Source: Parietichytrium sp. I65-24A (lineage: Eukaryota; Sar; Bigyra; Thraustochytrida; Thraustochytriidae). Taken from it: a stretch of 64,000 nt of DNA. How positions within the stretch are numbered: the stretch's first letter is position 1; each line of letters starts with the position of its first letter. Of this stretch, positions 43,550 to 43,996 are shown in pieces. The translations under genes and the position numbers were made by a program. The notes under the pieces are model-generated. The model saw only the letters and a list, made by a program, of their open reading frames with translations, was not told the DNA's origin and made no database searches. The stretch is taken from the NCBI GenBank assembly GCA_012862575.1, contig BLSF01000082.1, forward strand, positions 89,646 through 153,645, given 5' to 3'.

Positions 43550-43996
43550 CTAAGCGGAAGCACCCTCCTGCTCGCGCCTCATGCGCTCGGCGTTGTTGTT
43601 AGGTCCGAGGCGCTTGCCACCAGGAGCCTTGATAACATTTACAAAGCGGCGGTTGTACTGAAGGCGCTTCTTCGCGCGTCCGCGTGGCTGCTTCTGCTTA
43701 TCCTGCTTCTGAACCTTTGGGGTCTGGCCCTTGACCTTTCCAGCGCGCGCGAGGGATCCGTGCACCTTTCCACCGCGGAGGCGGAGCACCAAGTGGAGGG
43801 TGGACTCCTTCTGGATGTTGTAGTCGGACAGAGTGCGTCCGTCCTCGAGCTGCTTTCCGGCGAAGATCAGGCGCTGCTGATCTGGTGGGATGCCCTCCTT
43901 GTCCTGGATCTTGCTCTTCACATTCTCGATGGTGTCGCTTGGCTCCACATCGAGTGTGATGGTCTTGCCTGTCAATGTCTTCACGAAAATCTGCAT
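43550..43996 (-). CDS. RPS30: Ubiquitin-eS30 ribosomal protein fusion
   Basis: The 148-residue precursor has a complete, near-canonical ubiquitin (1-76, ending LRLRGG) joined directly to ribosomal protein eS30 (77-148, beginning [19 protein letters not shown]). Deubiquitinases should cut after Gly76 to release one ubiquitin and one 40S subunit protein. The ubiquitin moiety differs from the human protein at only two positions that I can count (Asp16 for Glu, Ser28 for Ala) and keeps Lys6, 11, 27, 29, 33, 48 and 63. In animals eS30 is fused to the diverged ubiquitin-like FUBI, so real ubiquitin here is notable. The eS30 part carries a C-terminal extension of about ten charged residues ([12 protein letters not shown]). 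A GA tract lies on the coding strand in the leader (44062-44099). Confidence 0.97.

Follow-up and report, generated by a model that had tools for sequence, protein, structure and literature searches.

A gene that joins canonical ubiquitin to ribosomal protein eS30 in a probable stramenopile

The stretch of DNA analyzed here (the window, 64,000 nucleotides) contains a gene in which a canonical ubiquitin is placed directly before ribosomal protein eS30. This Ub-eS30 gene is best read as the cell's eS30 gene and as an ordinary ubiquitin precursor that would be cut after Gly76, with a fusion that most likely arose independently of the holozoan FUBI-eS30 fusion (probability about 0.87 for this reading). 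The window corresponds to C82:89646-153645 of a host assembly of 42,540,916 bases in 172 contigs. The gene and its parts are located in the window as follows.

43550..43996, minus strand: Ub-eS30 fusion gene, a single uninterrupted open reading frame of 148 amino acids plus stop
43769..43996, minus strand: ubiquitin moiety, 76 amino acids with the C-terminal end RLRGG; residues 12-76 are the same as in six other ubiquitin units of the genome
43550..43768, minus strand: eS30 moiety, 72 amino acids plus stop
43766..43771, minus strand: predicted scissile junction Gly76/Lys77, GGA then AAG, where cleavage would occur
44062..44102, minus strand: simple CT repeat, which reads as GA-rich on the coding strand and is located 66-106 bases upstream of the Ub-eS30 start codon

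The reading frame begins with ATG, ends with TAG and contains no internal stops. Upstream of the ubiquitin ATG the frame stays open for 9 more codons without a further ATG, and the CT repeat perhaps lies in the leader or core promoter of the gene. A Pfam search of the protein returns two domains, ubiquitin (residues 3-74, E = 1.7e-32) and Ribosomal_S30 (PF04758; residues 77-135, E = 5.3e-27). At the junction, residues L73-R74-G75-G76 are followed by K77-V78-H79-G80, encoded by CTC CGC GGT GGA / AAG GTG CAC GGA. These Pfam matches and junction codons bear out an earlier note on this DNA, which had described a true ubiquitin with an intact RLRGG end directly before eS30, leaving the strand of the gene unstated. 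The eS30 moiety has no ATG at the junction (its first internal Met is eS30 residue 63), and complete eS30 can therefore be made only behind ubiquitin. The proposal in the same note that ubiquitin is made stoichiometrically with eS30 holds at the level of the translated product. Compared with three eS30 stretches from the PDB, the eS30 moiety is 76, 74 and 66% identical over 59 columns. The matches to PDB eS30 leave out its last 13 residues, and three of the PDB chains themselves stop 1-2 residues past the matched part. Ub-eS30 is confirmed as a real gene, far beyond chance, and is probably functional.

The ubiquitin moiety differs from PDB ubiquitin (u149203) at just two aligned positions, E16D and A28S, and keeps Ile13, Gln49 and lysines 6, 11, 27, 29, 33, 48 and 63. 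A whole-protein search of the host assembly with Ub-eS30 gives 15 matches, of which 7 are letter-identical over residues 12-76 of ubiquitin: Ub-eS30 itself, Ub-eL40 (C9), three polyubiquitin units (C33), Ub-eS31 (C70) and the first half of a Ub-NEDD8-like gene (C16). The nucleotide comparison uses these seven units, chosen by that exact stretch and drawn from five loci; it leaves out the other 8 of the 15, which comprise five distant Ub-like matches, the two diverged mono-ubiquitins (C146, C149) and the second, NEDD8-like half of the C16 gene. Over the 195 nucleotides compared, Ub-eS30 and each of polyubiquitin units 1 and 2 differ at 13 sites, all of them third positions; the differences from Ub-eS31, polyubiquitin unit 3, Ub-eL40 and the C16 copy number 23, 26, 28 and 33, respectively. 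Random synonymous pairs (5000 draws from a codon pool taken mostly from the same compared genes) differ at 33 +/- 4.6 nucleotides, with a minimum of 16. The ubiquitin of Ub-eS30 therefore appears to share recent history with polyubiquitin, which may reflect either gene conversion or a fairly young fusion. The distances to Ub-eL40 (P(<=28) about 0.17) and to the C16 unit lie inside the random range, so homogenization of the ubiquitin copies is not uniform.

The presence of Ub-eL40 and Ub-eS31 precursors in the same genome supports the earlier description of Ub-eS30 as a third ubiquitin-ribosomal protein precursor. A profile search of the assembly gives one PF01599 match and one PF01020 match, and the Ub-eS31 gene has an apparent intron after Lys11. 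Two UCH-type deubiquitinase genes are found in the host genome (C87 and C6). In the polyubiquitin gene (G000:C33:106500-108300, locus L027), unit 2 is one base short in codon 4 relative to its neighbors, near base 781; this gap, immediately ahead of the residues used for the comparison, puts units 1 and 2 out of frame with each other and is either a sequencing error or a real lesion. Other ubiquitin loci include a minus-strand gene (L008, G000:C16:74869-78066) in which ubiquitin is fused to a second Ub-like domain that is 52% identical to the query ubiquitin, ends in VLQLRGG-GSV and has a NEDD8/RUB-like look. Among the best 60 of its 303 PDB matches, NEDD8 chains and single-ubiquitin chains reach similar scores. 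Two nearly identical diverged mono-ubiquitins (L025, G000:C146:2235-3460, and L026, G000:C149:8700-9900) are located on small contigs of 32 and 27 kb with a lower GC content of 0.44-0.45, and both stop after RLR, without the diglycine needed for conjugation.

Ub-eS30 would be processed in the manner of other ubiquitin precursors. We infer that the gene is expressed, that the ubiquitin part of the nascent protein folds and that general deubiquitinases cut the protein after Gly76. The released ubiquitin would then join the cell's free ubiquitin, and eS30, now beginning with Lys77, would be incorporated into the 40S subunit. The arrangement may help a very basic protein to fold or raise its yield, and may couple ubiquitin supply to ribosome production. 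In human cells, removal of FUBI from eS30 is required for 40S maturation (PMC8354635), and for this reason the junction of Ub-eS30 matters. FUBI-eS30 is cut by USP36 in human cells, with USP16 as the proposed backup (PMC8354635, PMC10611586), and it has been argued that the divergence of FUBI limits processing to these two enzymes (PMC10611586). No such restriction would be expected for the true ubiquitin that precedes eS30 here.

The host was placed using marker genes. Its EF-1A (L032) has NMPWYKGPYLLEALDQI at the site where the yeast query has 29 letters, as judged by eye, and the lengths agree. This insertion in EF-1A is one that we take to mark opisthokonts. Host EF-1A does not contain it, which places the host outside Holozoa and makes it probable that the fusion is independent of the FUBI-eS30 of animals; a holozoan host was rejected on the same ground. 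The host is probably a stramenopile, and its EF-1A sequence also has a stramenopile look. A TPI-GAPDH fusion is a stramenopile marker. Neither of the two TPI genes showed one when the same open frame was inspected by eye, a procedure from which introns could hide a fusion, and the stramenopile assignment is therefore not certain. The host assembly gave no match to the chlorophyll-binding family and no 5.8S rRNA among the 39 of 1723 candidates scored. Thraustochytrid PUFA synthases have tandem acyl-carrier domains; none were found in the host genome, where 11 acyl-carrier matches have neighbors at least 2.9 kb apart. Two open frames (G000:C7:19811-27643 and G000:C66:7956-22997) of 4460 and 5583 residues contain 3 and 5 carrier-protein domains, respectively, kilobases apart, and perhaps encode giant modular polyketide synthases.

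Two further genes in the window belong with the host markers.

36304-37713, minus strand: GAS domain protein, taken as flagellar GAS8/DRC4
60819-62720, minus strand: EGF-repeat protein with an apparent signal peptide

The EGF-repeat protein may resemble the Sig1 mastigoneme proteins of stramenopiles. On this subject, the reference list of PMC4700764 has an entry for Honda et al. (2007). The window also encodes two proteins that are related by eye (6694-8199 and 10385-11908, both on the minus strand), each with an apparent signal peptide and a C-terminal membrane segment; the first contains a fascin-type domain.

Three other explanations of the gene were weighed. One is that Ub-eS30 is ancestral to eukaryotes, with FUBI-eS30 and Ub-eS30 descending from a single ancient gene and with fungi, plants, alveolates and others having lost the ubiquitin part. 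The occurrence of Ub-eL40 and Ub-eS31 across eukaryotes (PMC8122580, PMC6332867) is in its favor, as is the position of eS30, which is the same here as in FUBI-eS30 chains. The shared KVHG start, however, is the conserved N-terminus of eS30 itself, several independent losses would be needed, and three independent fusions have been reported (PMC10611586). Structural data also count against this explanation: among the best 60 of 72 PDB matches to eS30, 47 begin at chain residue 1-4 and 13 begin later, the 47 including mature animal chains after FUBI removal and hence not only products of unfused genes. These 47 presumably include the eS30 chains of Toxoplasma, Plasmodium, Euglena, Leishmania, Giardia, plants and yeast, with match starts at residue 2-4. 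Taken together, an ancestral fusion has a low probability.

A second explanation is that ubiquitin stays attached to eS30, or comes off no earlier than a late 40S checkpoint, and that Ub-eS30 regulates ribosome assembly. The N-terminus of eS30 points to the decoding center, and in human cells maturation is blocked when FUBI-eS30 remains uncut (PMC8354635), both of which would fit such a role. In this gene, however, an intact RLRGG matches that of the genome's other ubiquitin precursors, and nothing at the junction looks resistant; this explanation is highly improbable. The remaining explanation is that a ubiquitin gene and eS30 were falsely joined in assembly or annotation; the earlier note had named an assembly artefact as a way in which its claim might fail. 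In favor of this explanation, the assembly is doubtful in at least one other place, namely unit 2 of the C33 polyubiquitin, with its one-base slip. A search of the host assembly (42.5 Mb) with PF04758, which runs exon by exon and could miss an eS30 copy split into short exons, gives a single match, the eS30 of this gene. That sole match and the lack of a separate eS30 start codon make an artefact unlikely, and the junction is in frame exactly at Gly76; the probability of this explanation is close to negligible. Processing as an ordinary precursor, with the independent fusion set out at the beginning, is thus the preferred reading.

Fusions of this kind are already known, and Ub-eS30 is a useful new example rather than a surprise. 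Aleshin et al. (2007), as cited in PMC10611586, reported that ubiquitin was fused to S30 and later diverged in three independent cases. The earlier note had allowed that the family might already be well described, and these three fusions make that true in part. They also support, as a general route already in print, its reasonable suggestion that FUBI could be a decayed form of a true Ub-eS30 fusion; for the ancestry of the present gene the suggestion is not supported, given that the opisthokont insertion is missing from host EF-1A. Rare ubiquitin fusions to eS8, eS19, uL1 and eL41 have been described, with eS30 mentioned in passing among ubiquitin partners, in a survey confined to domains with 80% or more identity to yeast ubiquitin (PMC8122580), and a true Ub-eS30 may already be present in its tables. 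Fusions to P1, P2, L40 and S27 are reported in Bigelowiella and to L40 and S27 in Guillardia (PMC6332867), and the term 'S30' is absent from the main text of that article. A ubiquitin-S30 fusion was said in 2008 to unite Holozoa and to be absent in earlier-branching eukaryotes (PMC2346548), and a FUBI-S30 fusion is described in animals and unicellular organisms but not in yeast (PMC11354881). Ub-eS30 fits the three-case statement of PMC10611586 and is an exception to the statement of PMC2346548. The first 300,000 characters of PMC5756292 and PMC2837639 yielded no S30 passage, the available parts of PMC4515611 and PMC5793068 give no distribution outside animals, and no description of an undiverged Ub-eS30 outside Holozoa was found in the accessible portions of the open literature searched.

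Sequence and structure databases were also searched. In IMG/VR, 13 candidate stretches gave 9 loci matching Ub-eS30, none of them beyond query residue 80 and thus all within the ubiquitin part. With eS30 alone, 0 of 20 candidate stretches were confirmed in IMG/VR and 0 of 152 in GTDB genomes; both databases cover viruses and prokaryotes and say nothing on other protists. Among the best 60 of 488 PDB matches to the whole protein, no chain falls at 160.2-240.8 bits, the range expected for a Ub-eS30 chain. Among the eS30 matches listed, chain 9eho_ff has eS30 at residues 118-175.

An independent, stable and lineage-wide Ub-eS30 outside Holozoa, with its ubiquitin held canonical, is a tentative proposal whose chances are slightly below even. 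If it is correct, FUBI would have a natural 'before divergence' control in Ub-eS30, fusion to eS30 would not suffice to make ubiquitin decay into a Ubl, and some further cause, for example confinement to USP36 and USP16, would have to account for the divergence of FUBI. As an undiverged comparator, the gene bears on why animal FUBI drifted and came to depend on a small set of processing enzymes. A clean non-opisthokont fusion also makes the holozoan character of PMC2346548 homoplastic.

Comparison with known systems places Ub-eS30 among the ubiquitin-ribosomal protein precursors. The fusions to P1, P2, eS8, eS19, uL1 and eL41 resemble it as lineage-specific recruitments of ribosomal proteins as ubiquitin tails (PMC8122580, PMC6332867) and differ from it in their ribosomal partner. 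The FUBI-eS30 (FAU) of Holozoa has the same ribosomal partner in the same place, a diglycine junction and a ubiquitin fold before eS30. FUBI, however, is a diverged Ubl with 36% identity to ubiquitin (PMC8354635), in which I13H and Q49P have occurred and most lysines are gone (PMC10611586), whereas Ub-eS30 retains Ile13, Gln49 and seven lysines and belongs to a host that is not an opisthokont. The closest likeness is to Ub-eL40 (UBA52) and Ub-eS31 (RPS27A), each with one N-terminal true ubiquitin ending in RLRGG and a small ribosomal protein fused directly to it. Ub-eS30 differs from these in having eS30 as the partner and, relative to the Ub-eS31 of its own genome with the apparent intron, in having an uninterrupted reading frame. 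It has both traits of a UBA52/RPS27A-type precursor, a bona fide ubiquitin ending in RLRGG and an in-frame partner after Gly76, and its cleavage would be predicted to yield free ubiquitin and mature eS30.
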